Positions 12,345 through 62,318 of a stretch of 64,000 nucleotides of DNA are shown here, piece by piece (the stretch's first letter is position 1; each line of letters starts with the position of its first letter). Made by a program: the position numbers and the translations under genes. This DNA is from Oscillospiraceae bacterium (GTDB lineage Bacteria > Bacillota > Clostridia > UMGS1810), in contig SVJL01000001.1 in the NCBI GenBank assembly GCA_015068985.1, forward strand, positions 1 to 64,000, written 5' to 3'. The notes beneath the pieces were generated by a model, which made no database searches, was not told where the DNA came from, and saw only the letters and a list, made by a program, of their open reading frames with translations.

Positions 12345-12440
12345 TAGAGCTTTATCTCTGCAGGGTACAGACTTATCCTGCGGCGAAGTGATATAAATAA
12401 ACAGTATATAAACTGTAAATTATGAAAGGTGGATCAGACA

Positions 12441-14771
12441 ATGAAAAACAATCTCAAAAAAGTTTTGTCTATGATTTGTATTTTTACAATGCTGCTTTCA
12501 TGCACATCGGTTATGGGTGTGCAGGCGGCAAATGAAGAACTCAGCATCATCACTGCTCAGTTCGTTCCCTATGAGCAGGAAATCAGAGTTCTTGCATCTG
12601 TTCCCACAGGATACACTGATGCAAAGGTTTATGTTAATGATGTTGAAATAGCAACAGCAGCTACCACTCAGGCAGATGGTGATGTTCTTTTCACATCAAC
12701 TTCGTTTGTGCCATCGGCGTATGGCATTGCAACTGTAAAGCTTGAAGCTATTGTTAATGGCAATGTATGTTCAGATACTCAGAATATAAAGGTTTATAAG
12801 GTTACTTCCAAAACTGAAGCTTTGACAGAATCCTTTCAAGGCTTGGATGCTATTGAGATGGAGAATGTAACTGATACCACGGTTACAGAATTGTTAGCCG
12901 CTTCTTCGAATGTTATTCTCGATAATGTTGCAAACGAAAAAAACAATTCTATTGCAAGTATTGCCAATAATTATGGTGGTACAACAGGTGATAACAAATC
13001 TTTAGTTGTTGCAATTCCAAATACTTTGGTAAGTAATATCCCTACAATAAAGGTTGATCCCGATAATATCACAGCAGGTATTGCTGAACTGAACTTTGAT
13101 ATGTATGCTTCAAAAGCAAGTCCACGACTTTCATTAAGATTTGAAACGACTACCGGCGGAGCATATACTTATACCAGTTTGAAATATCCTAAAAACACTT
13201 CGCTTCATAGTGGTTCATATTATGTAAAACATCACGACTACGCTACATATGCGTTTTCGGACGAAAAATACGAAAATGGTAAATGGCATAATATAAGATT
13301 TTTAATTGATTTTGACAACTCAACTTATGAATATTATGTTGATCACAAATTGATAGATTATGGTACAATTGTTGCATCCAAAGGAACAGGATACAAGTAT
13401 GTATATATGCAGATTGGTTGCAGTGGTGAAGATGTTGCAATAGCTTTTGACAATGTCATTGTAAATCACCTCAATGTTGATTCAATTTCTGCTTCCAAAG
13501 AACAAAACATTGTTGCGACAGCTGATTTTGAAAATGGTTTTAATAATGAGTTTGAAGTTGCGTATCCATCGGCCAATTCAAATTCTGCGTCAGCTAAAGC
13601 AGAATTAAGAGACGGCAGAAATGTTACCGGCGTATACTATAATGCTAAAGTAACAACCAGACGAAAAGAATTTGTTTCAATTTATAACGATTTTGACGAA
13701 CCGATTTCCGGTCGTATAGTTATTGAACATGATATGTACTTGTCAGATGGTTCTGCAAGAATTCAATATGAATTTAAGAATTCGGAAAATAGTGTTTGCT
13801 ACTACCCATTTACTGTTCCGGAAAATAGGTTCCAACTTAAGGAGACAAGTACCGTTGGTGCTAATAGCGATTCCATATCATACTCAGGCTGGCACAAAAT
13901 CAAATTAATTCTTGATACAGTTACCCAAACTTCAGAAATGTATTTTGACGACAAATATCTTGGCTCTTCCGCTGATTGGTCTATGAACTATCCTACTACC
14001 AGTGCTAATTTGGCACCTGAGTATGTTGATCGTATCGAATTAGCATATTCAGCTGGAAGCGCTCGAACAGTTGGAACAGAGTATCTGGGATTTGCTATCG
14101 ACAATTGGAGAGTCTATAAAGAACTTCCTGTTTCTGAAATGACAAGTGTCACAAAATATGATATCAACGCTAATTCTGCTGCATTGGTTCGCACTGATGT
14201 AATCTCTGCAGCGAGCACCGATAAATTCGAAATTGCTCTTACAAGCACCGAATATCTCAACCAGGCTTCGCTTGAAGCAAATGCAAAAGTTCTTGCTGAC
14301 GGGGTAGAGGTTCAGGATTCAGTTTCACTTTCTGATGGTATTCTTACTATTGATGTGTCTGATGTTCCTGCTCATGCAGACCTTGAACTTGTTGTTGGCA
14401 AAGATACACTTCTTTATGATGGCACAACTACAATTGGTGCTGATACCGTGTTCAATCTTAAGACTGCAAATGAGAACGACCTTTATATAAAACGTACAGT
14501 TGGTACAACTGCCGAAAGCCTTAATGCTACCTGTAAGCTTGATTTGGTTTCAGGCTCGAAGGATGTAGCGGTAATCTTCGCTTCTTACGATGGAGATGAA
14601 CTTGTTGGAATCACAAGTAGAACCTATACACTTACAGGAGCAAAGTCTCTTTCTATGACTCTTCCAAAATCTAATGCAACCAAGGTTAAATTGTTTGTAT
14701 GTGATAATCTTGAATCAAGCATTACCCCTTACGAAACAGAGTTAGAATATTCAATTCCCTCTCAAAACTAA
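12441..14771 (+). CDS. Secreted surface protein with LamG-like regions and a C-terminal module shared with other proteins here
   Basis: Signal peptide MKNNLKKVLSMICIFTMLLSCTSVMGVQA; paired LamG-like segments (GKWHNIRFLIDFDNSTYEYYVDHKLID; GWHKIKLILDTVTQTSEMYFDDKYLG). Confidence 0.6.
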   Translation: MKNNLKKVLSMICIFTMLLSCTSVMGVQAANEELSIITAQFVPYEQEIRVLASVPTGYTDAKVYVNDVEIATAATTQADGDVLFTSTSFVPSAYGIATVKLEAIVNGNVCSDTQNIKVYKVTSKTEALTESFQGLDAIEMENVTDTTVTELLAASSNVILDNVANEKNNSIASIANNYGGTTGDNKSLVVAIPNTLVSNIPTIKVDPDNITAGIAELNFDMYASKASPRLSLRFETTTGGAYTYTSLKYPKNTSLHSGSYYVKHHDYATYAFSDEKYENGKWHNIRFLIDFDNSTYEYYVDHKLIDYGTIVASKGTGYKYVYMQIGCSGEDVAIAFDNVIVNHLNVDSISASKEQNIVATADFENGFNNEFEVAYPSANSNSASAKAELRDGRNVTGVYYNAKVTTRRKEFVSIYNDFDEPISGRIVIEHDMYLSDGSARIQYEFKNSENSVCYYPFTVPENRFQLKETSTVGANSDSISYSGWHKIKLILDTVTQTSEMYFDDKYLGSSADWSMNYPTTSANLAPEYVDRIELAYSAGSARTVGTEYLGFAIDNWRVYKELPVSEMTSVTKYDINANSAALVRTDVISAASTDKFEIALTSTEYLNQASLEANAKVLADGVEVQDSVSLSDGILTIDVSDVPAHADLELVVGKDTLLYDGTTTIGADTVFNLKTANENDLYIKRTVGTTAESLNATCKLDLVSGSKDVAVIFASYDGDELVGITSRTYTLTGAKSLSMTLPKSNATKVKLFVCDNLESSITPYETELEYSIPSQN

Positions 14772-14819: not shown

Positions 14820-14899
14820 ACAAAACATTCTTTTAGATAACGAAATTAATTTGATTTTTCACACAATGTGTATCTAAAAAAGGCAGAATGGAGATTATT

Positions 14900-16567
14900 A
14901 TGAAAAAAATTCTTACACTCATAATTTGCGTATTATTAATACTTCCTGCCACATCTTTTGCATCCGAAACTACCAATGTCGCAGTTGTTTTTAATGCCGA
15001 TTCCGAAACAGTTGTTGTTTCGGGAAGTGCACCCAATGGTGATGTTATTATAACCGTCACAGAATTTGGCGACACAAACGAACTGTCTGATTCCTATTTT
15101 CCGATAGACATCATATCTGTTCGCAGCAACGGTACTTTTAGTGCAGAGCTTGAGCTGTCAAAATCAGCCGCCGGCAAAAAGCTTACTGTAACAGCTTCCT
15201 GCGTTGATGGCACAAATGACAGCGGCGATTTTGCAAATCCGGATTTTGATGCTGCAAAGACCTATATGTCATCAATAACCTCTGCAGAAGATGTGAGTGA
15301 ATTTATAAGCATTATAGAGCCTCAAGCTTCCAAATTCGGATTTGATACTGATGCAGAAATCTACAAAACATCAAAATCCGATATCTATGCAGTTCTGTAT
15401 GCTACAATCCCCGACAATGCAACACCGGCAGATGTGTATAACCTCTATTATACTTCCTGTGCTTTGGCAGGCTTTGAGGGAGCAGATCAGGCAAAGGCTG
15501 AACAGCTGCTTTTCGATAATGCCACATATTTTGGCATAGATTTTGATGATGATTATGTAAATGATGACAGAATAGATGCAGAATCCAAAGCTGCTCTTTG
15601 TGCTATTCTTTCTGCCGAAAAATACGGTGATGCTTTGTCGAGCACCGAAACCTTTGCTTCTTATTTTGAAAAAGCAAAGGCTTTGGCTAACATCAAAACT
15701 GCTTCAAACTGGCAAGATATAAAACAAGTGATGGAATCGGACTTTGCAGATAGTTTTTCGCTTGCTTCTATTTCTTCAACAAATGCTCAAAAAGCATACG
15801 CAAAAATGATGAACTATACATATTCTGATTTTTCAGATATTTCATCAAATTATAACAGGGCGGTTAAGCTTGTTAAAGAAGAAAACGAAAATTCCTCCCG
15901 TCCATCATCCGGCGGAGGTGGTGGCGGAAGCATTGGAAGCTCTGTGAGCCTGCCCCCTGTTGTTGAAATCGAAATTGACGATTCTGCGGCATCTTCCGGC
16001 GGAAAAACCCCAATGGTAACTCTTCCAAGTGGTGCAGAGAGCAATTTTGCCGATGTTCCGGCGTCGCATTGGAGCTATCCTGCAGTTTCGGCGCTAAGCT
16101 CGGCTAACATAATTTCGGGCTATGATGCCTCAACCTTCCAACCGTCAAACAACATTACCAGAGCAGAATTTACCAAGCTGGTGTGTGCTTCGTTTGGTAT
16201 TCCGTCGCTCAAAGCCGATTTTGCCGATGTGGCAGCAGACAGCTGGTATAATGGTTTTGTCGGCGGTGCAACAAGCTATGGCATAGTTAGCGGCTACGGC
16301 GACACCTTTGGACCAAACGATAACATAACCCGTCAGGATGCTGCGGTAATTGTGTATCGTGCTCTCAAAAATGAAGAAATCATACTAAACGGTAGTGCCG
16401 ATTTTGAAGATAAGAGAGACATCGCTCTCTATGCACTCACAGCCGTTGGAGCTTTTAAAGAATATGGTATTCTAACAGGCGACGGCACAAACTTCTATCC
16501 GCAAAACAATATTACCAGAGCCGAAGCAGCTCAGCTTCTCTATAAAGCTCTGACAATAGGACGTTAA
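14900..16567 (+). CDS. Secreted protein with Gly-rich linker and C-terminal SLH domains
   Basis: Signal peptide; SSGGGGGGSIGSS linker; FADVPASHWSYPAVSALSSANIISGY...NNITRAEFTKL, FADVAADSWYNGFV..., NNITRAEAAQLLYKAL. Confidence 0.88.
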   Translation: MKKILTLIICVLLILPATSFASETTNVAVVFNADSETVVVSGSAPNGDVIITVTEFGDTNELSDSYFPIDIISVRSNGTFSAELELSKSAAGKKLTVTASCVDGTNDSGDFANPDFDAAKTYMSSITSAEDVSEFISIIEPQASKFGFDTDAEIYKTSKSDIYAVLYATIPDNATPADVYNLYYTSCALAGFEGADQAKAEQLLFDNATYFGIDFDDDYVNDDRIDAESKAALCAILSAEKYGDALSSTETFASYFEKAKALANIKTASNWQDIKQVMESDFADSFSLASISSTNAQKAYAKMMNYTYSDFSDISSNYNRAVKLVKEENENSSRPSSGGGGGGSIGSSVSLPPVVEIEIDDSAASSGGKTPMVTLPSGAESNFADVPASHWSYPAVSALSSANIISGYDASTFQPSNNITRAEFTKLVCASFGIPSLKADFADVAADSWYNGFVGGATSYGIVSGYGDTFGPNDNITRQDAAVIVYRALKNEEIILNGSADFEDKRDIALYALTAVGAFKEYGILTGDGTNFYPQNNITRAEAAQLLYKALTIGR

Positions 16568-16585: not shown

Positions 16586-19333
16586 ATGAATAAAATTAAA
16601 TTGATTTTGTGTCTGCTTCTTTCTATGTCTTTGATTCCTCTTGGTTCATTTGGTGTCTTTGCATCAAGTGATTCTGCAGCTGTGCTCGAAGGCAGCACTT
16701 ATAATACCGAGCTTGAGTTTCTTTCTTATCTCGGCATTACAGATGGAATAGACACCACCGATTACTATCGCACAATAACCAGAGCAGAATTTGTTTCTAT
16801 GGTTGTAAAAATGCTAAATATTAGCCACACTTCTGAAAGCGATGGCAGATTTACAGACGTTAAAGAAAACAACCCACACATTTCGGCGATTTACACAGCA
16901 TATAATTTCGGGCTTTTAAAAGGCACAAGCGACACAACCTTTTCGCCCGATATGCCCATAACCTATGCAGCAGCCGTTAAAATTCTGGTTAGTGCACTTG
17001 GCTATGAAGAATACGCATATCTGAGTGGTGGTTATCCCACAGGCTACATTAAGCAGGCAGACTATGTTGGCATACTTGATGGAACTATCGACCATTCTGT
17101 AGACGCTTCTCTTTCATGCGGCACAGTTGTGACAATGATTTCAAATTCTCTCACAGCTAACCTGCGTAAAATTGTCAGTGTTACAGATGAATATGTTCAG
17201 ACTGCTGTGGCAGACGGCGAAAACTGTCTTACTCAATATTTTAAGTTGACTCATATCAGCGGTGTTGTTACAACAGCAGGGTACCACTCTATGATAGATG
17301 GTTACAACGAAGAAGAAAGTATGTTCGAAATTGGTGATGTTGCTCTTGATTGTTCACTTTCCAATGCCGAAAAATACCTTGGCTATGATGTTGATGCGTG
17401 GTATGATGCAAAAACAAAAAATGTTGCTGCCGTTCGCACCAAAAACACCAATAACACACTCACAATAAATGGCAGTGATGTTGAATCATTTTCCAATTTT
17501 AAGCTTACATCTGTTGTCGACGACTATGATAACACAAAATCATACACAATCGACAAAGGTTATACATTTGTTTTAAACGGCCGTGTAAAACCCGCTTCCA
17601 AATCGGATTTCTGCTTTGAAAGCGGCACACTCACTCTTATTGATAATAATGGTGACAGATGCTATGACGTTGTTGTTTCCAATCAGAAGAGCTATGTTGT
17701 TGTAAGAGGTATCAACACAACCGACAAAATTGTGTATGACAAAAACCGCAACGACATTCGCCTCATTCTCAAAGAAGAAAACGGCTATCACTTCAACCTT
17801 ACAAAAGACGGAATACCCATTGATGTTGCAGAAATTTCGGCCGATGATGTTCTTGAGGTTGCTCAGAGTGCCGATGGTTTTCTTGCCGACGTGCGAGTTT
17901 GCACAGGCTCAGTTAGAGGCACAATTACTGCCATAGGTCAGAATGAGATATATGTTAACGGCGAAATGTATGAACCGAATGAATATTTCACCAAATATTG
18001 CACTCCCGAAATTGGTCAGAGCGGCACATTCTGCTTTGATCCCAACGGCAGAATAACATATATTTCGGAGCTCTATATCAATTCTGTTCAGTATGCATAT
18101 TTCCTTGATATGGCTGTGTCTCATAACTCTCTTGCTGCAGCCGATGTTAAAATCAAGGTGTTCACCGAAAGCGGAAAAATTGAAATTTTCTCACTTTGCG
18201 AACGCTTGAGCTTTGAGGGTGAAAGCGTTTATAACACCAATGAAGACCTTTCAAAAGCACTTATGAATGGCACAATTCCGAACTATCAGCTCATTCGCTT
18301 TGGCACCGATGCAAATGGTCTTGTTAATATGATAGACCTCTCCGAAGATGTTGACGAAAATGCTGATTTAGTTGCCAAATATGCAGTTACAACCTCCGAC
18401 AACAGCCTCACAAGATACGTTAAAGCTGAAGAAAAAAGAGACACAGGCGTTGGTGAGGGTAATGCATATTGGCGTAAGGCAGGCAGTGCATTCGCACCAT
18501 ACTTCACTGTTGGCTCCACTGTAATTATGCAGGTTCCAAAATCTATCATAACAAGCCGCATTAATAACACCCCAATCGATGGCAAATTTGACGAGTCGGC
18601 ATTCACAATCACCGGTACGGGCAGTCTGCCAAACTATGGTTGGAGATATGTTGATGCATATGACTATGACGACTCTATGACGCCTAAAATTGTTGTAATG
18701 TATTATGGTAGTGCTAAACCGGGTGAGGTTGTAAGAGTTATTCCCGATGAAAACGATCCGATTCATCTTGTTGAAAATGTGGTAGATTGCATCAATGAAG
18801 ATGGCGAAAAGACAAAACGTATTTACTCATATTCCAACAACGGATTCCGGATTAATGACATAGCTGTTGAGGTTCTTTCCGAACTTGAGCTAAACAGCCT
18901 CATTCCCAAGGTTGGTGAAGCGGTAAGACTTTCGTTTAGCGGCAAATACATTAACGGTATTGCAAGAGATGTTATTTCCGACGGAAAAGGCGGATTCACT
19001 GTTCAGTATGGCGTAGATGGAGTAGGTGACACACCCATCGATGCCCACACCTACATTTCGGGCAAGGTGCTGAGCTGTGTAGACTCCAGCATTGTTGTAA
19101 AAACCGATAACTATCCCGACAGTGCAATATATCCCACACCAATCGACGGACTTTGCAGTCTGAGAACAACATCCGACACGGTTGTTGCAGTTCTTAACAC
19201 AGAAACCGGACTCGTGGAACACGGCGTTCTCTCCGAAATTTCCGACATTCGTTCTGTTGGTGAAGAGGATGCTTCATATGTCTGCATCGGACTTGGTGCT
19301 TACGAGCCTGAGTTTATTATAATTTATAAATAG
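16586..19333 (+). CDS. Secreted protein with N-terminal SLH domains and long non-catalytic beta-rich region (scaffold-like)
   Basis: Signal peptide; ITRAEFVSMVVKML...FTDVKENNPHISAIYTAYNFGLLKGTSDTTFSPDMPITYAAAVKILVSALGY. Confidence 0.8.
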   Translation: MNKIKLILCLLLSMSLIPLGSFGVFASSDSAAVLEGSTYNTELEFLSYLGITDGIDTTDYYRTITRAEFVSMVVKMLNISHTSESDGRFTDVKENNPHISAIYTAYNFGLLKGTSDTTFSPDMPITYAAAVKILVSALGYEEYAYLSGGYPTGYIKQADYVGILDGTIDHSVDASLSCGTVVTMISNSLTANLRKIVSVTDEYVQTAVADGENCLTQYFKLTHISGVVTTAGYHSMIDGYNEEESMFEIGDVALDCSLSNAEKYLGYDVDAWYDAKTKNVAAVRTKNTNNTLTINGSDVESFSNFKLTSVVDDYDNTKSYTIDKGYTFVLNGRVKPASKSDFCFESGTLTLIDNNGDRCYDVVVSNQKSYVVVRGINTTDKIVYDKNRNDIRLILKEENGYHFNLTKDGIPIDVAEISADDVLEVAQSADGFLADVRVCTGSVRGTITAIGQNEIYVNGEMYEPNEYFTKYCTPEIGQSGTFCFDPNGRITYISELYINSVQYAYFLDMAVSHNSLAAADVKIKVFTESGKIEIFSLCERLSFEGESVYNTNEDLSKALMNGTIPNYQLIRFGTDANGLVNMIDLSEDVDENADLVAKYAVTTSDNSLTRYVKAEEKRDTGVGEGNAYWRKAGSAFAPYFTVGSTVIMQVPKSIITSRINNTPIDGKFDESAFTITGTGSLPNYGWRYVDAYDYDDSMTPKIVVMYYGSAKPGEVVRVIPDENDPIHLVENVVDCINEDGEKTKRIYSYSNNGFRINDIAVEVLSELELNSLIPKVGEAVRLSFSGKYINGIARDVISDGKGGFTVQYGVDGVGDTPIDAHTYISGKVLSCVDSSIVVKTDNYPDSAIYPTPIDGLCSLRTTSDTVVAVLNTETGLVEHGVLSEISDIRSVGEEDASYVCIGLGAYEPEFIIIYK

Positions 19334-19344: not shown

Positions 19345-22300
19345 ATGGCAAAAAAATTAATTTCTCTGATATTAATCGTTTCATTTATATTGCCTCTTGG
19401 GGCATTTGATGTGTTTGCAGCTGTGCAGCCTACAATATACCTTAACGAAGTTTTCGACGACTATGCATTTAACGAAACAGCCACCGGTCCCGTCACAGTT
19501 ACAGCCGGAGTTGATGCAAGAGTTAAAGCAAAATCTGACAAAGGCTTCGACAAAGCTCTTTACGCAAATGCGTGGGGCGATAATGTGTATCTATATGCTC
19601 CGCTCTCGGGTGTAGAAAACACATTTGTTGTGACAGCTGATGTACGCTTTGACGGCAAACGTACCACTGCTTCTCTTTTCACACTTGGTTCTTACGATCT
19701 TCTCTCAGTCAGCGCTGATGGCAGAGTAACTCTTCCCGACGGCAAGACTGTTGGTGGTATGTCATATGGCAGATGGACAACATACACCTTTGCATTTGAC
19801 CTTCGCAACGAATCAAGTCAGCAGATGGATATTTATGTAAATGGCAAGCTCAAGCTTGACAACTGGAAAATCAAAACAAAAATTTCTGCTCCTTCAGAGA
19901 TTTCTTTCTTTGTGGCTCAGCCCGACGAAGAAGGCGGCTCCACAGAATTTATGCTGGACAATTTCAGAGTGTATGGTGGCAACAAAGTTCTTTCTGCAAA
20001 AGATTTCCCGTCTAAGGGTGTTTCAACCGAGGTGAAAACATTTGCAGAAACAACTCAGATTGATCTTAATAAAGAAGTTACTGTATATAATATAGTAGAC
20101 TTTGACACAAATAACTCTTACACCCAGGTTCCGAAAAACAATGTTCTGGAACGCAGAACACTTGATGATCCCGATCATCCAACAGTATTTTACGAAAACA
20201 GAACCAACACTAGCGACGCATTCATCGATATTGCCAACGATGCGGCTATGCAAAATGAGTGGAAGTTTATTGTAGAATTTAACCTCTACCTTATACGCAA
20301 TGGCTATCGTATAAGCATTGCCTACACCGACACCAACGGCAAAGCCACCACCGGCGTTTTCGTAACCGGCAGCAGCATCATTTGCGGCGGTGTTAAAGGC
20401 GGTTCGGTTCCATACAATAAGTGGACAAAGGTTTCTGTTCTCTACGATATGACACTTGCCACATATTCAGTGTGGCTCAACGGTGTGGAAGCAGTTTCTC
20501 CCCAAAAGCTTCCCAACGGAAGATTCACTCCTCAAAAGGTTCGTATAGGCACATCCTCCGGCGGCGGCCCAATCGAATATTACCTTGACGACATTCGTAT
20601 CTACAGTGGCAATAATGTTGTAGATTTTACTGAAGAAACAAATTCTGAAGGAACAAATTCAGAAGAAACCGTTGCTCCCGGTGGTACCTCTTCCTCCGGT
20701 AGCTCATCATCTCACAGTCCGTCAGGTTCGGGCTCTTCATCATCTTCTTCATCTCTTGGACTCAACTCCGTATTTGAGAAAGACTCCGTTGCTCTTGGCT
20801 ACATTGGCAATGCTGTTGTTTTCAAAGATGATATCAATTCAGTTGTATTTGACCACAAAAAATACAAATATGAAGATGTATCCGAGGGGTATCCATATAT
20901 AGCCGATAATGGCACATTTATGATACCTGCCGATTTGTTTGGCAAAGCCTTTGGCACTGCTGTTGTTTTGAACGAAAATGAGGTTACAATCGGCACCGAT
21001 GCAAAAACAACTGTTGGTGCTGCCACAATCAGTGCATCCGGCAAGGAATATAAGCTCGACTCGCCTGTTGCAATCAAAGATGATGTGCTTTACCTTCCTG
21101 TTCGTTCCGTTGCACAAGATATTCTTGGTCGCACCTATATGCTCGACCGTGGTATGCACATTTTTGACAAAACAACATTCAAATATACCAATTCAGAGCT
21201 TACCTACAACACCAAAGAACCCATCGACTCTATTTATCGTTTTATGCAGTTTGAACACAAAACTGCGGCCGATATTTATGCTATGATGGATTCACACCTG
21301 GGTGGCAATGTTCATCCTCGCATAATGACAGACAGTGCAACCCTTAGTGAGATTAAGGCAAACTCACGCACCAATGATGTGGTATCTGAGGCTCTTGCCA
21401 CCACCTTGGAGCAGGCCGACAAATATATGACAACACCTGTTCAGATTTATGACATTCCCGACGGAAAGCGACTTCTTGTTGCTACCCGTAACATAATGGA
21501 AAGGCTTGTTGCACTTTCTGCCGCCTATATGATGACCGGCGACACCAAATATGCTGATCGTGCGTGGACAGAGATGGAAAATTGTTTTGCGTGGAAAGAT
21601 TGGAATACCGCTCAGCACTATCTTGATAACTCCGAGCTTCTCTATGGTGTGGCTGTTGCGTTTGACTCGTTCTATGATTACTACACCGATGAGCAAAAGC
21701 AAATTATTATGGACAAAACATGGGAGCACTCTCTCAAGCACACAGTAGAAAGATATCAGGGCATCAATTTCTCGGGTTCTGAATGGCGTACAGCTCAGTC
21801 TAACTGGGGCTTTGTGTGTAACGGTGCTGTTATCACAGCCGTCCTCACATTCGGCAGAGAAGGCAACACCAAATATCAGCCCTACTATGACTATCTCTTA
21901 GAATGTGCACTTCAGGCTATCGAATATCCGATTATGCTCTATTTCCCCGATGGTGCATGGGAAGAGGGTATGGCATATTGGGAATATGCTCTTCGTTATC
22001 TCACAAGTGCAACTTTAATTCCGCTATACTACTGCACAGGCTCAACTCTCGACTTTATGACTCCTCAGGGTGTTACCAAAGTCGCTGATATGGGACTTTA
22101 TATGCAAAGCGGTAACTTTGGCTTTAATTTCTCAGATAATGCAGACGAAGGCAAAAAATCAAGCGAAGCAGTTTATGCACTTGCTATGCTTCTTGACGAT
22201 GACAGCCTTATGCAAACATGGAACTACGAAATGGAAAGTATGGATGCAACTCACGGTGCCAGAACTCTTATGTGGTATCGTCCGTCTGATGACGACAATG

Positions 22301-23871
22301 CGACCGATGCTTCTTCAACACCTCTCGATTCATATTTCAGAGGCATATGGGTTGGTTCTATGAAAGAAGAATGGTACAATACCGATGGCTCAACAGTGTT
22401 CTTCAAGGGCGGCGAGCTCCGAATGAACAGCCATTTTGACACAGGTACGTTCTGCTTTGATACAATGGGCGAAAGATGGTCTGTTGACCTTGGTAAAGAC
22501 AGCTACAATATCGCCGGCGGCTACACCGGCTTTGCAGGCTTTGAACTCTATGCAAAACGTCCTGAAGGTCATAACTGCGTTGTTATCAACCCAAGAGCCG
22601 ATATCGACGGTAAGTACTACGGTGGTCAGGCATATGACACAAAGGCAGAAATTATTGCTATGGAAAGCAAAGAAAAAGCAGCCTACACTCTCATAGACCT
22701 TTCCGAAACCTATAAATATGACACAAGCTCCTACACAAGAGGCTTCTATCTTGGTGATGACAGACGCACACTCACTGTTCAGGATGAGATTTCTCTCCTT
22801 GAGGACAATAGCCCCATATATTGGTTTATGCACACAAGAGCAAAAATTGATATTGATGCCGACGGTAAAGGTGCAGTCCTTAGCCAAAACGGCAAGTCTG
22901 TTCGTGTTGATATGCTCACCAATGCATCTGATGCTAAGTTTACTGTTGGTGATGTTGGCGAAGACGTTCAGCGTTTCCCCACCGATCCTGTAAGACCGGG
23001 TCAGCTTCAGGGCGGCACATTCACATCTGTTAAGGCTCTCACACTCGAAGCCAAAGGCAGTGGTGATGTGTATATTACAATCAAGCTCAGCCCTATGGAT
23101 GGCGACTTCGACACCTATGCCGACATTAGCTACACTCCAATCAAAGACTGGACTCTTCCCGATGGTGCCAAGGCAGATAAACTCCGTGTTGATATGATTT
23201 ATGTAAACGGTACTCCCATAGATGGTTTTGCAAAAGGAAAATTCGACTACGAAATCACAGTTCCTTACGGTGCACCCGTTCCGGTTATCACGGCCACAAG
23301 CTCCGATGGCGATGTTATTGTTGAGCAGTCAACATCGGTAGATGTGCCCACCTATGTGTATGTTGCCGGCAGTGATGGTCGCAAAGTAAAATATACCGTA
23401 AATCACGACCCTGTTATTAATGTTACAACTTCTCTCATAGCCGGTCTCACCGGTCAGGTTGGAATTCCTGAAGGCTATAAAGCTCTTTATGGAACTCCTG
23501 AAATTTCCATTCTGGAGCAGGCAGGTAACGACGAAAAATGTCTTGTTGACGGCGATTTTGACACTCGTTGGGCAGCAACGGGTGAGGGTGTATGGTGCGA
23601 AATTGACCTTGGTCAGGTTACCGACATTTCCGGTGTGGCTGTAGGCATATATTCGGGCGACACAAGAAAGAACATATTCAAGATTCAGATTTCCGAAAAC
23701 GGTGCAGACTATGTGACTGTATATGATGGCATGAGCACAGGTCTCACAGGCACAGACTACGAGTCATATATGTTTGAACGTAAAGCAAGATACATTCGCT
23801 ACGAAGGCTTCAAGAATAACCAAAACACATGGAACTCAGTGCTTGAGCTTGCGGCAATAGTAAAGAAATAG
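19345..23871 (+). CDS. Secreted heparinase II/III-type polysaccharide lyase: LamG-like, Ser-rich linker, copper-amine-oxidase-N-like, lyase, F5/8 type C-like
   Basis: Signal peptide; LamG-like repeats; GSSSSHSPSGSGSSSSSSS; DVLYLPVRSVAQDILG; SEWRTAQSNWGFVCNGAVITAVL; LRMNSHFDTGTFCFDTMGERWSVDLG; C-terminal DGDFDTRWAATGEGVWCEIDLGQVTDISGVAVGIYSGDTRKNIFKIQISENG. Confidence 0.82.
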   Translation: MAKKLISLILIVSFILPLGAFDVFAAVQPTIYLNEVFDDYAFNETATGPVTVTAGVDARVKAKSDKGFDKALYANAWGDNVYLYAPLSGVENTFVVTADVRFDGKRTTASLFTLGSYDLLSVSADGRVTLPDGKTVGGMSYGRWTTYTFAFDLRNESSQQMDIYVNGKLKLDNWKIKTKISAPSEISFFVAQPDEEGGSTEFMLDNFRVYGGNKVLSAKDFPSKGVSTEVKTFAETTQIDLNKEVTVYNIVDFDTNNSYTQVPKNNVLERRTLDDPDHPTVFYENRTNTSDAFIDIANDAAMQNEWKFIVEFNLYLIRNGYRISIAYTDTNGKATTGVFVTGSSIICGGVKGGSVPYNKWTKVSVLYDMTLATYSVWLNGVEAVSPQKLPNGRFTPQKVRIGTSSGGGPIEYYLDDIRIYSGNNVVDFTEETNSEGTNSEETVAPGGTSSSGSSSSHSPSGSGSSSSSSSLGLNSVFEKDSVALGYIGNAVVFKDDINSVVFDHKKYKYEDVSEGYPYIADNGTFMIPADLFGKAFGTAVVLNENEVTIGTDAKTTVGAATISASGKEYKLDSPVAIKDDVLYLPVRSVAQDILGRTYMLDRGMHIFDKTTFKYTNSELTYNTKEPIDSIYRFMQFEHKTAADIYAMMDSHLGGNVHPRIMTDSATLSEIKANSRTNDVVSEALATTLEQADKYMTTPVQIYDIPDGKRLLVATRNIMERLVALSAAYMMTGDTKYADRAWTEMENCFAWKDWNTAQHYLDNSELLYGVAVAFDSFYDYYTDEQKQIIMDKTWEHSLKHTVERYQGINFSGSEWRTAQSNWGFVCNGAVITAVLTFGREGNTKYQPYYDYLLECALQAIEYPIMLYFPDGAWEEGMAYWEYALRYLTSATLIPLYYCTGSTLDFMTPQGVTKVADMGLYMQSGNFGFNFSDNADEGKKSSEAVYALAMLLDDDSLMQTWNYEMESMDATHGARTLMWYRPSDDDNATDASSTPLDSYFRGIWVGSMKEEWYNTDGSTVFFKGGELRMNSHFDTGTFCFDTMGERWSVDLGKDSYNIAGGYTGFAGFELYAKRPEGHNCVVINPRADIDGKYYGGQAYDTKAEIIAMESKEKAAYTLIDLSETYKYDTSSYTRGFYLGDDRRTLTVQDEISLLEDNSPIYWFMHTRAKIDIDADGKGAVLSQNGKSVRVDMLTNASDAKFTVGDVGEDVQRFPTDPVRPGQLQGGTFTSVKALTLEAKGSGDVYITIKLSPMDGDFDTYADISYTPIKDWTLPDGAKADKLRVDMIYVNGTPIDGFAKGKFDYEITVPYGAPVPVITATSSDGDVIVEQSTSVDVPTYVYVAGSDGRKVKYTVNHDPVINVTTSLIAGLTGQVGIPEGYKALYGTPEISILEQAGNDEKCLVDGDFDTRWAATGEGVWCEIDLGQVTDISGVAVGIYSGDTRKNIFKIQISENGADYVTVYDGMSTGLTGTDYESYMFERKARYIRYEGFKNNQNTWNSVLELAAIVKK

Positions 23872-23881: not shown

Positions 23882-25585
23882 ATGAAAAAAATAATATCTT
23901 TATTACTCACTCTTTCACTCATTATTTGTGTGCCTGCTTCTGTATATGCAGAGGATACCGTATCGGTTTCGATCCTAACTCCGGCAAACGGCATCACAAT
24001 CGAGAATACTGAATGTACAGTAGAGCTCGACACAAACGGCAATATTGACGAAACTGTTATAGAGCTCGACGGCACGAGAATAGATGGCAACGTATTAACA
24101 GAGAGTATGCTCACCATTGGTGAGCACACTCTCGCCGTATACGTAATAGGTGCTGACGGCAGTGTTGCCTCTGACACAAGCATATTCAATGTACAAAAAA
24201 GCATTGTTAACGCCAAGTTTACCCAAAACTTTAACGATATGGCAAATGGTTATGTGGCAGATGCTTCCACCATAATTTTATACGGTGACTATAATTTTAA
24301 AACTGCCGACTACAGAATCACATTTGCTACTCGTTGGAAAGCTAAGCCCGATGCCTATTATGGCAGGGTTTCGGCTGCAAGCGGTCCTGATGGTGATACT
24401 GATTATGCTGCAAATATTACCAGTGAAGTGGGTAGCACCAAGGGGGCAACAAGTCTTCCGAGTATCAATGTGCAGCTTGGTTCATCTGTGGGCGTAAAAA
24501 CCTCAGGAAGTTTTGAGTTTGACCTCAAAATAAATCCGTCCACTTACATCATTTTCAATGCCATTGGTGTTTCAAGTGCATTTTTGAAAAACGATAACAC
24601 ACTCCGACTTTTTGACAATTATTCTGTCACTTCCGGTGGCGTAATTTTAGGCGACAGTGAAAAAACCTATGATCCGTCAAAATGGCAGCATGTTAAAATT
24701 ACTCTTGAACCCACCTCAACGTGCACCAAGTTCAAATTAGAAATGTCTGAAAAGGATGCTCAGGGCAATTGGGTTGTTCACACAACAGTTACCGATACTA
24801 CCACGGCTTCCATCGGCGAAAGAGTTGACGGATTCAGAATATACTACGGTGGCGGTGCAGGTATGGGTCTGAGTCTCGACAATGTCAAAGTGAGTGAAGC
24901 TCCAACGTATACCGGCATCAACAAAATCACATATATGTATGATACTGAAGAGAGCACCGACAAATATCCTGATGTTACAAAGCTCACAGCACTCAAATTA
25001 TATATGAATGAAAAACTTACAGCCTCTGACCTTACGGGCATGGTTGAAATAACCGATTCCAATAATGTTGTTATTCCTGCTTCAGCTCTTGAGGTTGATG
25101 CTGCAAATAATGCAATAATAGCATCGGTTTCTCAAAAGCTTGATGTTAACGCTGCCTACAAAGTTTTGGTTGACCTTTCTGCAAATTATCCGGGCACTGT
25201 TTTGGAAACCGATAAATCACATATCACATTTAAAACAGCTGCCGATTCTTATGACGTTACCGGAATTGACTACTCAGTTGGCTCCACCCGCCTTATCACA
25301 GCTGCACAGCTCAAAGGCAAAAAGCTCAGTGCAACAGTTCATTTTTCCAATAGTGAGATTGATGTTCAGCGAGTAACGGTTGTTCTTGCAGTAAGAAGCG
25401 GCAAAAAATTAGTTGGTCTCGATATTGTTTCTGCGGCAATTCCTGAAACAACAGCAAACTGTGATGTTCCCTTAGAAACAGACATTATCCCCAACGATAT
25501 TACCAAAGCTCAGATACAGGTGATGCTTCTTGACAATATGTCAACTCGTCAACCCGTATTTGCAACATATGAAGTTAATTATTAA
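23882..25585 (+). CDS. Secreted surface protein with LamG-like region and shared C-terminal module
   Basis: Signal peptide MKKIISLLLTLSLIICVPASVYA; C-terminal VTVVLAVRSGKKLVGLD...AQIQVMLLDNMSTRQPVFATYEV. Confidence 0.6.
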   Translation: MKKIISLLLTLSLIICVPASVYAEDTVSVSILTPANGITIENTECTVELDTNGNIDETVIELDGTRIDGNVLTESMLTIGEHTLAVYVIGADGSVASDTSIFNVQKSIVNAKFTQNFNDMANGYVADASTIILYGDYNFKTADYRITFATRWKAKPDAYYGRVSAASGPDGDTDYAANITSEVGSTKGATSLPSINVQLGSSVGVKTSGSFEFDLKINPSTYIIFNAIGVSSAFLKNDNTLRLFDNYSVTSGGVILGDSEKTYDPSKWQHVKITLEPTSTCTKFKLEMSEKDAQGNWVVHTTVTDTTTASIGERVDGFRIYYGGGAGMGLSLDNVKVSEAPTYTGINKITYMYDTEESTDKYPDVTKLTALKLYMNEKLTASDLTGMVEITDSNNVVIPASALEVDAANNAIIASVSQKLDVNAAYKVLVDLSANYPGTVLETDKSHITFKTAADSYDVTGIDYSVGSTRLITAAQLKGKKLSATVHFSNSEIDVQRVTVVLAVRSGKKLVGLDIVSAAIPETTANCDVPLETDIIPNDITKAQIQVMLLDNMSTRQPVFATYEVNY

Positions 25586-35542: not shown

Positions 35543-36955
35543 ATGTTGAAAAAATTAATGGCACTAACAATTATTGCAACAATGCTTCTTTCATCTTTTT
35601 GTATTATAGCACAGGCGGAGTATGGGTATAGTTATGGGGAAGAGATCGTAAAAAAGACTGCTGGAAATTCTACTGATAACGCTGTTAATCAGAAAGCAGG
35701 AGACAGTGTAACAAATAAGTCTCAAACATTTGTAAACTCAGAAAAAACAAGAGGATTGTACTTCCTTTACAATTATGATTCACAAACAGGTAAATACAAA
35801 AGAGATGATGCATCTGCAACCTCAATGCGCGGAACAAACTGTTTCGCTATGGACTCATATTATCCACGATTAATGGCTGATTTTAAGACTCGTGCATATC
35901 GCTTTTATACTACAAACCATGCAGGAAAATATTTCTTCAGTCAGAAGAAAGGAGTGCCTACTTTTCAAATTAAACCTAATTCAGGTGTAAGCTTTAACAA
36001 TACAAGCACTATGAGTTATATGTTTGATATCAAGTATAATGAAAACACAGATATTCCGCAGACAGTATTTAAATTATTACTCTCCGGCGTAGGCTATAAT
36101 GTATTGGGAATAGATACAGACGGATATATAACATCTGGTCCATTAGCATATAACAGTGCAAAAATCGGAAAAATTGAAAAAGGCAAAGAATATACATTTG
36201 TCATCGTTATGGAAACTTATGAAAATTCTGAAACTGCCGGCACATATGATATTTATAAAAAAATATATATTAAAGATAATTCAAATGAAAATTCAAAATT
36301 TGAAAATATCTACAATACATTGGTAAAAGCTGCACAAACATTAAGCAACTATAAATTCCAAGAATTCGATGTTGAGTTTTATCCCTACACTTATGAGCAA
36401 CTTAATAACGCTGATTTTTACAAAAATCTTATAACAGATAAAGGTGATGAATATAATTATTATGTTGGCGGATATAACAGTAGCGATACAAGCTTACAAC
36501 CCAGCAGCGCTATTGATTGGAAATACCAGCTTAAAAATGTAGATTTTTACGTTGATGACATTATAGTACAAGCAGGAAATGCATGCAGTGAAAAAGTTGC
36601 ATCTGCTACTGACAGTGAAAACATTAATTTCTTTATTTCATCTACTGTAAATACAGCAAATATACCGGCCAATCAAATGGTTACTGTTGCGGCTGAAGCC
36701 ACATCAGATGCAACTATATCGGGTGGTAAGTTAGTATTGGCAACATACGATAAAACAGGTGAATTAAAAGGATTAAAGATAAAAGATTTATCAATTGTTA
36801 ACGGAAGTATTAGTGAAACAATTGAAAAAATAGAAAGAGTCTATCAGATAGGTAGTGAACTTAAAGTTATGCTCATAGATGATATTGGCACAATAACACC
36901 GCTTGGAAAGTCAACTTCCTTTATACAACCCGAAATATATGAAGCAGAAGAATAA
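35543..36955 (+). CDS. Secreted surface protein with shared C-terminal module
   Basis: Signal peptide MLKKLMALTIIATMLLSSFCIIAQA; LamG-like organisation; C-terminal GKLVLATYDKTGELKGLKIKDL...ELKVMLIDDIGTITPLG. Confidence 0.6.
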   Translation: MLKKLMALTIIATMLLSSFCIIAQAEYGYSYGEEIVKKTAGNSTDNAVNQKAGDSVTNKSQTFVNSEKTRGLYFLYNYDSQTGKYKRDDASATSMRGTNCFAMDSYYPRLMADFKTRAYRFYTTNHAGKYFFSQKKGVPTFQIKPNSGVSFNNTSTMSYMFDIKYNENTDIPQTVFKLLLSGVGYNVLGIDTDGYITSGPLAYNSAKIGKIEKGKEYTFVIVMETYENSETAGTYDIYKKIYIKDNSNENSKFENIYNTLVKAAQTLSNYKFQEFDVEFYPYTYEQLNNADFYKNLITDKGDEYNYYVGGYNSSDTSLQPSSAIDWKYQLKNVDFYVDDIIVQAGNACSEKVASATDSENINFFISSTVNTANIPANQMVTVAAEATSDATISGGKLVLATYDKTGELKGLKIKDLSIVNGSISETIEKIERVYQIGSELKVMLIDDIGTITPLGKSTSFIQPEIYEAEE

Positions 36956-37170: not shown

Positions 37171-37208
37171 AAATGAATCAAAAAAACAACAACGAAAGGA
37201 TGGAAAGC

Positions 37209-40200
37209 ATGGTGAAAATAACTTTAAAGAGAGTTACATCAATACTTACTCTTGCTATATTCATCTTCACTGCTTTAGCATTTTCTCCCTCAACCGAGAC
37301 CTTGACCAAAGCGGCAGACAGCTACCAATTAGGTGAGCTGATAGGCTTTGAAGGTGCAACAGCTAATTCGTATGAGGATACCACCGATACGCAGATTGTA
37401 AAAAGAATGTGTATGAATGGAAAAGGAAGATCTTCCAAAGAGGGAGATGCCAGCTACTACTTTATATTCAACAAAAACGTAAGAAACACAACATCCGGTA
37501 ACTTGAGATTAAGCAATTCTAACACTCAGAATGTTCTTTTCAAATCAAAAGGTTATCTTCTTAACGTAAAAAGCACCGGTAATGATAACAAATCTATTGT
37601 AGGACAAAACTTTTATTCCACATCTTCTGACCTTTATGCAAGAGTAGCGTTAGTTGATTCGCAGGCAAGCAGCAGTGCCAATCTGAACACTATTTCTCAG
37701 AAAAAAGAATCTGCTGTTATGACCTATGAGTTTGACCTTCAATACAAAACAAACTTTTTTGAAATTTTGGGTTATGTTTCCACTCACCTTTCAGGTTCAT
37801 TCTCCGGCAGAAACATTCCTGCAATAAAAGTGGACAACAAGGGTAATCTTTATGCTACAACCTCCGGTTTTGAAAATGCGACTTCAATCGGAAGTCTCGA
37901 ACTTGGCAAAAAGCATAAAATTTCAGTGGTGATCAAGCTTACACCAAGCTCACAAACTGACAAATTCAATTATGCTACAAGTGTTTATCTTGATGAAGTC
38001 GAAAAATTCACAGGAGAAGGTGCAGACCCTGTTTCTGCCAAAAACTCCGCTTTCTACGGCTTTGAGTTTGACCTCAGACCTTGGACAGTCAACACCAATT
38101 TCTCTGCATCAACTGCAGGCTTCACCGGCACAGCCGATGGCTACTATGGTTATGGTAATGCAACCTCAACCAAATTGACTGTTGCAAATTCCACGTTGAA
38201 CGAATACACAATAATCGATACCGACACAACCATCAGTGATTTTTCAGTTTACGCCGGCAATATGTATGGTGACGTGCTCAGAACATACTCATCTTTAGAT
38301 GATATGGAAAAAGAAATTAACGATGGTACCACACTCACCTCGGGGCAGGGTAGTGCCGAAATCAAGTGGGAATCTTCAAATTCTGCTTTGGTTGACGTTG
38401 ATGAAAATGCTGTTATCACAATTGCAGACGATGAATATTATGGCTACACCATTCCGGTTAGCCTGAAAGCTACAATTTCGGACGGTATCGAAACAACCAC
38501 CAAAACAGTTGACGTTGAAGTTCGTCGCAGCACCGATTCCTGGTCAGCTCAGGATTTTGTTGACTACGATGCACTTATGCCTTTCTCATATCTGACAAAT
38601 CAGGATCAGAATGCGGTTGGTGCACCCATCACATTACCAACCGAAAGTGAAAGCGGCAGCACCTTTGAGTGGAGTGTTTCTTCGACTGAGGCAGCCGGTA
38701 TCACAGATAACGTGCTTTCTTTTGTTCCGCAAAGCAAGAATGCAACAAACGTTACTCTTACTCTCACAATAAGCCGCAACGGGGCAGATTCTGCAGAAGT
38801 TAAATATCCGCTCACTGTTATCAAAGCCGGCTATAGCGAGGATGAAGTATATAAGTGGAAACACAATTTTGAAACCACGGCAGAAGAGCCTGCCGCAGGC
38901 ATATATGGTGACAAAATTGACTTTGAAAACTGGAGCGACATTCGCCTTGGCTACAAATGGCCTTTCCAGACAGATGCTTCAGGTATTGTGCCCGTTAACG
39001 TTAATGTTAGACCTGTTATGATTGTAGGTCCCTTTGATGATGCAATATCAGGCTTTGATGCTCAGGCAATTTTGCAAATGGCAAGTAGCAAGCTTGCAAC
39101 CGATTTTGAGTTTGAACTCTCTGCAGATGGTGATTCCTGGGATCCGGTGACAACATATTATACCGTTGGTCCCGAAACAAAGATTCCCGACGGAAACGCC
39201 GTTTGGACTGTATTTGAGCATATGTATCGTCCAACATACATTGACACCTCAAAAGATTACAGATATCTTAAAATACGTTTTAGTGATGCCTCTTATGTCA
39301 GTGACAAGTATGTTGCTGCATCAGCATTCGACTCTATCACTGTCTACTTCGACACAGATGTTACCAAGGCATACAAAGACCTTGTGTTTGAAGATATGTC
39401 TTCCGAGAAGATTAATGCTGTAAACAACAATCTTTATATTCCCTCAATCGGAACCGGCGACACCGTTATTGAATGGACTTCTTCAAACCCCGATGTTATT
39501 ACAATCGATGCAGAAAGCCAAACTGCAATTGTTAACGAAAATGCTTTTTATGGCTACTCAATTCCCGTTACACTCACAGCCAAAATTTCTAAAACACCCG
39601 AAAGTGAAACAAGCGGCACTACCCGTGAAAAGGTGTTTGACATAACCATTGTCCGCAACACAAAAGGCTGGACAAATCAGGACTATGTTGACTATGATGT
39701 TTTGCACTCCGCTTCCAGAGCTTGCCTCACATTTGGCTACTTCACCGAGCAGCCGGAAGCTATGGTTGCCACAAATATTCACCTTCCCAAAAAGTTGGAT
39801 GGCGGTGGTAACTTTACTTGGGAGATCGAAAAGCGTGACGGTTCAAGTGCAACAGATGTTGCCAAAATTGACAACTATATTCTCTCGTTCACTCCTCAGG
39901 AAAAAGCGGTTACTCCGCTAACTCTTACTGTAACTTCAACAAAAGGCAATGCAAAGGCAACACGTGCATTTGACATTGAAGTTGTCAGAGGTTTTTCCGA
40001 TAATCTTATTTTATCGGCAGATGTAACATCATCCACAAGCGGCATCAGAAAAGCTCTTTCACGTGATGTTGTCACATATTGGGAAACATCACAAGAAGAT
40101 AGTGAAAAAACCGTTAATATCGAATTTTCAAAAGTAACAGAAATAAATTCCGGACTTGTTGTTGAAAGCGGAGAAAACGTTTCTTCAATCAAGCTCGAAG

Positions 40201-41309
40201 TGTCTGAAGACAACGAAACATGGGAAACGGTGTATACAGGCGAATCAAAAGGTGACCTTGTGCGTGAAGCCTTTGCCTTTGAATCGGTAAAGTGCAAATA
40301 TGCACGCTTTACCTTTGAGTCCGAAAATCCCATCAAAATTGCAACTCTTGAGCTCTACAACAACATTGTTACTAACCAACAGGCAATGGAGCTTAGTCTT
40401 GATGCACTCTCCATTCCCACCACAACAAGCAAAAATCTCACCCTGCCCGCCAAAGGCGAGTTTATTGGTGATATAAGCTGGACATCCAGCGATTCGTCGG
40501 TTATTGCAGTTGTTGGCACAACAGGTAAAGTTACAAGAGCTAAAAACGAAAACAAAACTGTTACCCTCACTGCAACACTCAGCTGTGATGGCTACGAATC
40601 AATAACCAAAACTTTCAAGGTAACTGTTGCAGGCATAGTTTCTGCAGGTGGTTCCGGTGGTTCTTCAAGCTTCGGCGGCGGTGCATCCGGTGGCTCAGTT
40701 GCGGCAAAAGACTATGACATTCCCTCAGTTGAAAACGGTTCAGTTGCATCACCTTCAGGCACATTCTTTACAGATGTTCCAAATGACCACTGGGCATATG
40801 AGTATATTGATGCTCTCACAAAAGATGGTGTTATCAGTAAGGCAGATAATTACCGCCCCTCCGATTTGGTTACAAGAGAGGAATTTGTAAAGCTTATTGT
40901 TGCAGCAATTGGTGCCGAAGCCGATGATGAATCGGATGTTACATTTAGCGACAGCGACAAAAATGCTTGGTATCACCCCTTTATTTCTGCAGCATACTCC
41001 AAAGGCATCGTTACCGGTAATGCAGACGGCAGCTTTGGAATTGGCAAATCTATCACTCGACAGGACGCAGCAGTTATGCTTTACAGAGCAATAGCTAAAA
41101 AGCGTGAGATCGATAATATGCTGATTTTCACCGACTCCGACACCGTTAGCGTGTATGCTTCTGAAGCTGTGGCATATCTTGCAAACGAAAGAATCCTCAA
41201 TGGTTACGAAGACGGCTCATTCCGTCCTTTCAACAATTTAACAAGAGCTGAAAGTGCAAAAATCATTTATATCCTGAGCACAATTGCAAAGGAGGCTAAC
41301 AATGCTTAA
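37209..41309 (+). CDS. Large secreted protein: LamG-like region, tandem Ig-like repeats, discoidin-like domain, Gly/Ser linker, C-terminal SLH domains
   Basis: Signal peptide after ATG 37209; repeats EIKWESSNSALVDVDENAVI.../VIEWTSSNPDVITIDAESQTAIV...; SAGGSGGSSSFGGGASGGSV; FTDVPNDHWAYEYIDALTKDGVIS...NNLTRAESAKIIYIL. Confidence 0.8.
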   Translation: MVKITLKRVTSILTLAIFIFTALAFSPSTETLTKAADSYQLGELIGFEGATANSYEDTTDTQIVKRMCMNGKGRSSKEGDASYYFIFNKNVRNTTSGNLRLSNSNTQNVLFKSKGYLLNVKSTGNDNKSIVGQNFYSTSSDLYARVALVDSQASSSANLNTISQKKESAVMTYEFDLQYKTNFFEILGYVSTHLSGSFSGRNIPAIKVDNKGNLYATTSGFENATSIGSLELGKKHKISVVIKLTPSSQTDKFNYATSVYLDEVEKFTGEGADPVSAKNSAFYGFEFDLRPWTVNTNFSASTAGFTGTADGYYGYGNATSTKLTVANSTLNEYTIIDTDTTISDFSVYAGNMYGDVLRTYSSLDDMEKEINDGTTLTSGQGSAEIKWESSNSALVDVDENAVITIADDEYYGYTIPVSLKATISDGIETTTKTVDVEVRRSTDSWSAQDFVDYDALMPFSYLTNQDQNAVGAPITLPTESESGSTFEWSVSSTEAAGITDNVLSFVPQSKNATNVTLTLTISRNGADSAEVKYPLTVIKAGYSEDEVYKWKHNFETTAEEPAAGIYGDKIDFENWSDIRLGYKWPFQTDASGIVPVNVNVRPVMIVGPFDDAISGFDAQAILQMASSKLATDFEFELSADGDSWDPVTTYYTVGPETKIPDGNAVWTVFEHMYRPTYIDTSKDYRYLKIRFSDASYVSDKYVAASAFDSITVYFDTDVTKAYKDLVFEDMSSEKINAVNNNLYIPSIGTGDTVIEWTSSNPDVITIDAESQTAIVNENAFYGYSIPVTLTAKISKTPESETSGTTREKVFDITIVRNTKGWTNQDYVDYDVLHSASRACLTFGYFTEQPEAMVATNIHLPKKLDGGGNFTWEIEKRDGSSATDVAKIDNYILSFTPQEKAVTPLTLTVTSTKGNAKATRAFDIEVVRGFSDNLILSADVTSSTSGIRKALSRDVVTYWETSQEDSEKTVNIEFSKVTEINSGLVVESGENVSSIKLEVSEDNETWETVYTGESKGDLVREAFAFESVKCKYARFTFESENPIKIATLELYNNIVTNQQAMELSLDALSIPTTTSKNLTLPAKGEFIGDISWTSSDSSVIAVVGTTGKVTRAKNENKTVTLTATLSCDGYESITKTFKVTVAGIVSAGGSGGSSSFGGGASGGSVAAKDYDIPSVENGSVASPSGTFFTDVPNDHWAYEYIDALTKDGVISKADNYRPSDLVTREEFVKLIVAAIGAEADDESDVTFSDSDKNAWYHPFISAAYSKGIVTGNADGSFGIGKSITRQDAAVMLYRAIAKKREIDNMLIFTDSDTVSVYASEAVAYLANERILNGYEDGSFRPFNNLTRAESAKIIYILSTIAKEANNA

Positions 41310-60456: not shown

Positions 60457-62250
60457 ATGAAAAGAAATAAGTTAATTACACTTAGTTTTCTGATGGCTGT
60501 GGTTATGATTATGTCTGTTTTTGTAGCAACCGTATCGGTATGTGCGGCAGACACAACGGTAGCAACTGCAACTGAAACGTATTATGTAAGGAACGATGAA
60601 ACAGGAGCAAATACAATTTTTGTTGTAGATGGTTATTCAAACAATCATCGACTTGGATTTATGAAATTCGATTTCTCGACAATTAATTTAGATGATTATC
60701 CGGGCTTGAAATTAAAATTAACAAGTGTCAAAGGAAATCATGGTAATGGAAATAACGTTAATAAAAATATTGATATTAAAATAAGTATTATACCTCAATA
60801 TTTGGAGAGTAGTGCATCTCTTTCTACATTAACATATAGTGGAGCAAACAATGCGCAATGGTTAAACGATTTTGATTCAATTGGTAGTGTTACCGGAACC
60901 ATTGTTGATGACACTGTTAATAATGTGTTTTATTCCACTGATATTCTTAGTGCAATAAAAGCAGATATAGCAAATAATCAAGATGATACAGTAGTTTTGA
61001 AAATTGAAAGCAATATAACAACTAATGGCTATGCTTCTGTTTACTATGCAAATTGGGCAACAGGAGATGGTAGAAATGTTCAAATTGTTACAATGACAGA
61101 AGCGGAAGTCAATGAAAACAAAGCTAGGGCTCAGGCTGATGCAGATGCACTCGAAATAGCTGATACAGCAGAGCTTGGTAGCACAATTGCACTTCCATCG
61201 GAAGGTTCCGTCAACGCATCAAAGATTACTTGGAAATCTGATTCAGACTACATAAATACTGAAACCGGTGTTGTAGCATCATCAATAGGCTTTGTAGACG
61301 AAGTTGTTACTCTCACTGCAACAGTGAATTATAATGGTATTGTTACCACAAAAGATTTTGAAGTAACGCTTGCCGGAAGTAATATTTTGCCCGCAAGTGA
61401 TTGTGTAACAATTAGAGGTGAAAAGGCAGAAGATAACAAATCAACGTTAGCAAGCTATCTGGTAATTAACCAACAGACTTCAGACAACAGATCTCAGGGT
61501 GTAATTAGATTTGATTTAACCGATGTTAAGAAGTCAATTGAAAGCTTAGAGGATATTTCAGTAAGACTTACTATGTGTTATGTTAAACCGGGAACAAATG
61601 AGACGATTGACTATGAAAACGGCAAATATTTCTTGTCAATTCTTCCGGATAATGCGTGGACAAAAGACACAATGACTCTTAAATATGCAATTGAAAATAA
61701 TCTTATAAGCGGTGCAACAAAGGCGGGTACAACAGGAACCGTTGCAACAGTTGTCGGTAATACTATTGTGTTCAGTGGACTAAAGGATGATATAAAGGCA
61801 TTTATAGACAGTAATCCTACCGCAACATCAATTTCGTTTCTTCTAAATACTGAAGAAACCAGATCTGAAGATTCTGTATACTTCTATGTTATGGGCAATG
61901 GAGAGCATAAAGCAACCGAAGCAACACAACCACTTCTTGTTGGCGAAACTTCAAAGCGTTTTGTTGCAGTAAATGACAATGGTGCTGTTACATTTACATA
62001 CAATGCGGATTCTGCCAAGTATCCTACAGGCATTAATATGGCCACCACATTCTTTGTTGCCGAATATGCACCCGATGGAAGTCTTGTGAACGTTGTTTCC
62101 GGAACCGATGCAGATTCAGTTATCACAAACGGTGAAACAAAAACTTTAACAATCACAGGCTACACAAGCGGCAACACAATTAAAGCTATGGTATTTAATA
62201 ATTCGTCAGAAATTATGGCAATGCAACCTGTTACAATTTTTGGTAATTGA
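60457..62250 (+). CDS. Secreted surface protein with two DNRLRE-like domains, Ig-like domain and a divergent shared C-terminal module
   Basis: Signal peptide; ETYYVRNDETGANTIFVVDGYSNNHRLGFMKFDFSTI...; CVTIRGEKAEDNKSTLASYLVINQQTSDNRSQGVIRFDLTDV. Confidence 0.65.
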   Translation: MKRNKLITLSFLMAVVMIMSVFVATVSVCAADTTVATATETYYVRNDETGANTIFVVDGYSNNHRLGFMKFDFSTINLDDYPGLKLKLTSVKGNHGNGNNVNKNIDIKISIIPQYLESSASLSTLTYSGANNAQWLNDFDSIGSVTGTIVDDTVNNVFYSTDILSAIKADIANNQDDTVVLKIESNITTNGYASVYYANWATGDGRNVQIVTMTEAEVNENKARAQADADALEIADTAELGSTIALPSEGSVNASKITWKSDSDYINTETGVVASSIGFVDEVVTLTATVNYNGIVTTKDFEVTLAGSNILPASDCVTIRGEKAEDNKSTLASYLVINQQTSDNRSQGVIRFDLTDVKKSIESLEDISVRLTMCYVKPGTNETIDYENGKYFLSILPDNAWTKDTMTLKYAIENNLISGATKAGTTGTVATVVGNTIVFSGLKDDIKAFIDSNPTATSISFLLNTEETRSEDSVYFYVMGNGEHKATEATQPLLVGETSKRFVAVNDNGAVTFTYNADSAKYPTGINMATTFFVAEYAPDGSLVNVVSGTDADSVITNGETKTLTITGYTSGNTIKAMVFNNSSEIMAMQPVTIFGN

Positions 62251-62266
62251 TTATATATTGCTCAAG

Positions 62267-62292
62267 CGGCGAAACGGTTCTCCGTTTCGCCG
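62267..62292 (+). terminator. Hairpin CGGCGAAACGG-TTCT-CCGTTTCGCCG, terminator-like or attenuator
   Basis: Perfect 11 bp stem, no U-tract. Confidence 0.55.
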
Positions 62293-62318
62293 TTATACAA
62301 TTTAGGAAGGTGAGTGAC

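Follow-up and report, generated by a model that had tools for sequence, protein, structure and literature searches.

A small Ig-like module that ends many exported proteins of Clostridia and their relatives probably helps to keep these enzymes and binding proteins on the surface of the cell, and most likely retains them through an SLH-anchored protein encoded next door. The surface-holding role is suggested because the module caps many exported proteins and adjoins wall-clamping proteins gene after gene. The new part is the genomic context, a recurring operon-like cassette in which the gene or genes for module proteins are followed by a gene for a protein with three C-terminal SLH repeats (SLH-C) and then by a gene for a protein with N-terminal SLH (SLH-N). 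The question touched is by what means gut Clostridia, rich in SLH and mostly uncultured, retain at their surface the many exported enzymes and binding proteins that have no anchor of their own. That the module family and the cassette exist is close to certain.

In the window (the whole stretch of 64,000 nucleotides that was analysed), four exported proteins end in the module, all encoded on the forward strand. The protein at 12429–14771 (780 residues; open reading frame and profile match) carries module copy 1 at 14469–14744 and opens the first cassette. The 567-residue protein at 23882–25585 carries the module at 25256–25576, and the gene after it is not an SLH gene. The second cassette is opened by the 470-residue protein at 35543–36955 (profile match at 36611–36919) and the third by the 597-residue protein at 60457–62250, which has an aBig_2 domain and a divergent copy of the module (profile match at 61927–62238). 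The shared C-terminus had been proposed in an earlier note on this DNA and is present as quoted there. BLASTP comparisons between the four C-termini are weak (best pair 23882/35543, E = 0.01), so that the alignment by eye was no proof in itself and homologues were needed to establish significance. A profile was therefore built from 38 homologues encoded elsewhere, excluding all sequences of the window; as these homologues had originally been collected from window seeds, its independence is incomplete, although the gap to the background is wide. The profile matches exactly 4 of the 304 open reading frames of the window, with E values of 5e-13 (35543), 9e-13 to 1.7e-12 (12429), 2e-9 (60457) and 2e-7 (23882). 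By comparison, the fifth-ranked frame reaches E = 1.6, and shuffling the set 20 times gives E = 0.07 at best. The copy at 60457, described earlier as divergent, thus belongs to the family; it was wrongly placed in the first MAFFT alignments and aligned properly once homologues were added. A three-sequence profile without this copy finds five more loci in the same genome (E 4e-8 to 2e-4), and one of ten rows matches at about 21 places.

The module is ~85–105 residues long, with the consensus ...N.....v.v..A.YD..G.L..v.....G......KvFvWDsm..i.PL. AlphaFold2 predicts a six-strand β-sandwich (pLDDT 78, pTM 0.70), and Foldseek relates this model to a porphyran CBM and to Ig-like domains that belong to GH2 enzymes (TM 0.5–0.57); the closest standalone structure is the porphyran-binding CBM 8wae (TM 0.57). 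The predicted fold is a generic Ig-like sandwich. The module is a small unnamed domain, which no Pfam or NCBIfam model covers. The four window C-termini give no significant match in either collection, and among 42 members, DUF7490 matches two (best 1.7e-9) and CARDB matches two weakly (best 4.5e-4). A profile search of the PDB gave no match, and a search of a viral structure library gave none at E ≤ 0.001. Inspected by eye, the C-termini show neither LPXTG nor a tail of basic or hydrophobic character. A dockerin was considered and rejected, with no dockerin match among the families shown for the 42 members and a model that is all β. An SLH domain was likewise rejected: PF00395 repeats are missing from all four window proteins (0/4), in line with the earlier description of these proteins. 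The published literature searched, with subscription papers outside its coverage, held no description of the module or the cassette.

The genome of the window contains about 22 copies (21–23 by profile), and genomes of the same family contain up to 78–79. Across the class, the module occurs in 107 of 391 sampled genomes (64 of 222 genera); in a sample of the phylum beyond the class, it occurs in 19 of 398, mostly as a single copy. Named carriers include Clostridium ljungdahlii, C. ragsdalei, C. carboxidivorans, C. tetanomorphum, Fervidicella, Paenibacillus sp. YN15, P. chondroitinus, Monoglobus and Epulonipiscium. The location is at the extreme C-terminus in 20 of 21 copies in the genome of the window, all within 16 residues of the stop; in other taxa, 55 of 62 copies end within 14 residues of the stop. 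A few copies are internal. The proteins that carry it include GH95, SASA esterase, DUF4962, heparinase and CBM96 proteins, and many have no Pfam match. A profile of the module would annotate the C-termini of many 'hypothetical' exported proteins, up to about 79 per genome. Apart from the fusions described below, module and SLH almost never share a chain despite sharing genomes. The only module open reading frame with clear SLH in the genome of the window is C77, a 3.3-kaa frame with an internal module; a module-like stretch in the C66 SLH-C protein was seen by eye only. At L062:5671-5934 (G000 C66:8670-8936), an in-frame TAA splits a module frame from a long exported protein upstream, and a single stop within the module match is also seen in several relatives (G001 C80 and C82, G004 C193, G009 C39). 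In a Paenibacillus (L128, 354-aa gene) and in a Bacillota MAG (L127, 374-aa gene), the gene just upstream of the module gene encodes what by eye is a PrsA/SurA-like foldase.

Within the cassettes of the window genome, the gaps between genes range from −23 to 233 bp. The window holds cassettes at 12429/14888/16586, 35543/37173/41284 and 60457/62247, all on the forward strand. In the first, the SLH-C protein (14888–16567) consists of an Ig-like domain, termed here the receptor, and helical repeats (residues 24–372), a Gly-rich linker and three SLH repeats (16046–16531); the SLH-N protein (16586–19333) has 915 residues, with N-terminal SLH and a body of ~700 residues without a Pfam match. In the second, the SLH-C protein (37173–41309, 1378 residues) contains four aBig_2 domains, F5/8 and three SLH repeats, and the SLH-N protein (41284–43929) has 881 residues. 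In the third, the SLH-N gene (62247–64000) overlaps the preceding stop by 4 bases and continues beyond the end of the window. Between the first two module genes, at 19345–23871, lies a heparinase-type protein (DUF4962, Hepar_II_III_C, F5/8) with neither SLH nor module. Intact cassettes are found in the genome of the window (G000), in G001, G003 and G010 and, outside the family, in G243; G043 has variants with an additional gene or a fusion. Overall, the cassette was seen in three families.

The SLH-N proteins form a single homologous family of ~880 residues (about 860–915), with N-terminal SLH and the unnamed 700-residue body, and 107 of the 391 sampled genomes of the class encode them. Of the 15 copies in the genome of the window, 10 have a module gene at most 8 kb away (P 4e-6), as do 31 of 46 in G001 (P 3e-8), where both P values refer to a random-placement null that ignores the clustering of secretome genes. 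The corresponding counts are 7/35 in G043, 4/12 in G243 and 0/5 in G162. Wherever SLH-N and module genes are near each other, their strands agree (52/52). SLH was found in 104 of the 107 module genomes (138 genomes have SLH only and 146 neither) and SLH-N in 89 of them, and 89 of the 107 SLH-N genomes have the module, all three counts being uncorrected for phylogeny. Module and SLH copy numbers correlate across genomes (rho 0.70, uncorrected for kinship). One 1.4-Mb genome of the same genus (G005) has SLH and SLH-N and zero module copies, possibly a natural loss. Two observations speak against docking of the module on an SLH neighbour. In family f17 (G162), none of the 32 module copies is near the five SLH-N genes, which implies that the cassette is not needed everywhere, and the module genes at 23882 and in C19 have no adjoining SLH gene.

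Most SLH-C proteins of cassettes have the same Ig-like domain, helical repeats and Gly-rich linker ahead of SLH. A profile of the receptor matches 8 of 13 SLH proteins at module loci; among the 10 on which it was not trained, it matches 5, compared with none of the 22 SLH proteins encoded in 20 SLH regions of the same genome that lack a module gene (Fisher P 0.001). It also matches neighbours of module genes in distant taxa (Epulonipiscium, Bacillota and Clostridiaceae MAGs, a goat-colon MAG and Paenibacillus; L126, L127, L131, L132, L136 and L137, with L128 marginal at 9e-4). The receptor, folded alone without the module, is modelled with confidence (pLDDT 91) as an Ig-like sandwich of seven strands, for which the closest structures are MG and DUF3244 domains; the other matches listed are further Ig-like domains. 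A cohesin was rejected, as there is no PF00963 match and the structural matches listed are not cohesins. Two points count against docking here: the profile fails on the SLH-C protein of the second cassette (37173), and module and receptor are both predicted to adopt common Ig-like folds, with no recognised docking motif.

Four natural fusions (L170, L174 and L175 in G001, L177 in G043) join the two halves on one chain, with an internal module followed directly by the receptor region and three SLH repeats. In the three from G001, the tail has homology to separately encoded SLH-C proteins (5e-21 for L170, ~1e-10 for L174 and 2e-22 for L175), and that of L177 matches the C66 SLH-C protein (9e-21). 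The fused genes take the SLH-C slot before SLH-N. Such fusions are classical gene-fusion evidence of a functional link, as read from sequence, which is distinct from proof of binding.

Taken together, the cassettes and fusions make the surface association of the module proteins a well-supported reading. In the mechanism that we propose, the module would mark exported enzymes and binding proteins for surface retention with the SLH partner encoded alongside. It would pack against or dock onto this partner, most simply onto the N-terminal Ig-like receptor domain, so that secreted proteins that lack an anchor may be held non-covalently, with SLH-N as a putative third subunit at the surface. We regard direct docking onto the anchored neighbour as the best of the mechanisms and give it an even chance. 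Of the surface-retention or docking domain envisaged in the earlier note, the surface association stands, whereas binding of the wall or of an SLH protein by the module itself stays a proposal. That note had set against its idea a generic Ig-like domain with no surface association; the predicted fold is indeed generic, and the association is nevertheless indicated. The defined domain, its candidate partner and the natural fusions turn surface retention into a direct binding question.

The strongest competing account takes the module for an Ig-like domain that ends multidomain extracellular enzymes and acts as a cap, as a spacer or in carbohydrate binding, with SLH neighbours that reflect only shared polysaccharide-use loci. 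We consider it rather unlikely, though it accommodates the Ig-like fold, the porphyran-binding CBM as closest standalone structure, carriers such as the GH95, SASA esterase, heparinase and CBM96 proteins, the few members that match DUF7490 or CARDB, and the f17 genomes, where many module copies occur without the cassette. A spacer or CBM would not be expected to be strictly C-terminal and nearly missing from SLH chains; moreover, the receptor-bearing SLH genes follow module genes rather than SLH loci generally, and the module is fused directly to the receptor half.

The fusions could instead be read as the ancestral state, a chain of the type X-module-receptor-SLH that was repeatedly split, leaving the module as the last domain of the freed half with no interaction. 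Fused and split forms are indeed both found, and the split falls precisely at the end of the module. However, both halves of the split forms keep a signal peptide and the gene order is tight across families; many carriers, of the GH95, CBM96 and Paenibacillus heparinase types, have the module and no trace of a former tail, and a ratio of one to two module proteins per SLH-C is not that of a simple split. Such a relic is improbable.

In Clostridium, the neighbours carry a different anchor. The module protein of C. ljungdahlii (DUF4430, four Big_2 domains) has a CWB2 protein on each side, one of which has the same DUF4430 and Big_2 domains with CWB2 in the place of the module; in C. ihumii, a CWB2 gene adjoins the module gene. 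The loci with CWB2-anchored neighbours are L118:1271-9297 and L124:4966-7350. That the module itself binds a wall polymer or is a C-terminal sorting signal, independent of any neighbour, would fit its C-terminal position on many unrelated carriers, its copies in genomes without detectable SLH (G197, G217, G320) and the CWB2 rather than SLH neighbours in Clostridium, but we think it improbable too, as it leaves the cassette coupling and the fusions unexplained and the C-termini, by eye, lack the tails named above. The proposal that the module is an alternative to SLH is modified: the data favour a partner of an SLH protein over a stand-alone wall anchor, and in the fusions the module shares a chain with SLH.

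Among known systems, the C-terminal domain of type 9 secretion in Bacteroidota is an Ig-like domain of ~80 residues that forms the very C-terminus of tens of exported proteins in a genome. The module is also C-terminal and Ig-like; the hosts are Bacillota, which argues against type 9 secretion, and the likeness is one of fold and position. CARDB and DUF7490 share the Ig-like fold and are matched by a few module members, whereas the large majority match neither. S1 of Paenibacillus curdlanolyticus B-6, a protein of 863 residues with two N-terminal SLH domains and a body without known homology, has been reported to assemble with a xylanase (PMC6823336); its layout is the same as that of SLH-N, a comparison of layout that we take as a lead. 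In the cellulosome, as here, a small module terminates exported enzymes that have no anchor, anchoring is provided by an SLH protein (the scaffoldin) and the genes adjoin, but the module is a β-sandwich and not a two-helix calcium dockerin, and the receptor is not a cohesin. SusC/SusD pairs of Bacteroidota are likewise a gene set repeated at many polysaccharide loci of one genome; these are outer-membrane proteins, in contrast to the Gram-positive SLH proteins here, and with no sequence relation seen, the parallel is an analogy. Tentatively, the module and its neighbours may constitute a non-cellulosomal split-anchor system of Bacillota, in which the module would dock enzymes onto the Ig-like receptor of an SLH-anchored neighbour (CWB2-anchored in Clostridium) and the three-gene cassette at many polysaccharide loci would be a Gram-positive counterpart, in its logic, of SusCD or cohesin–dockerin.
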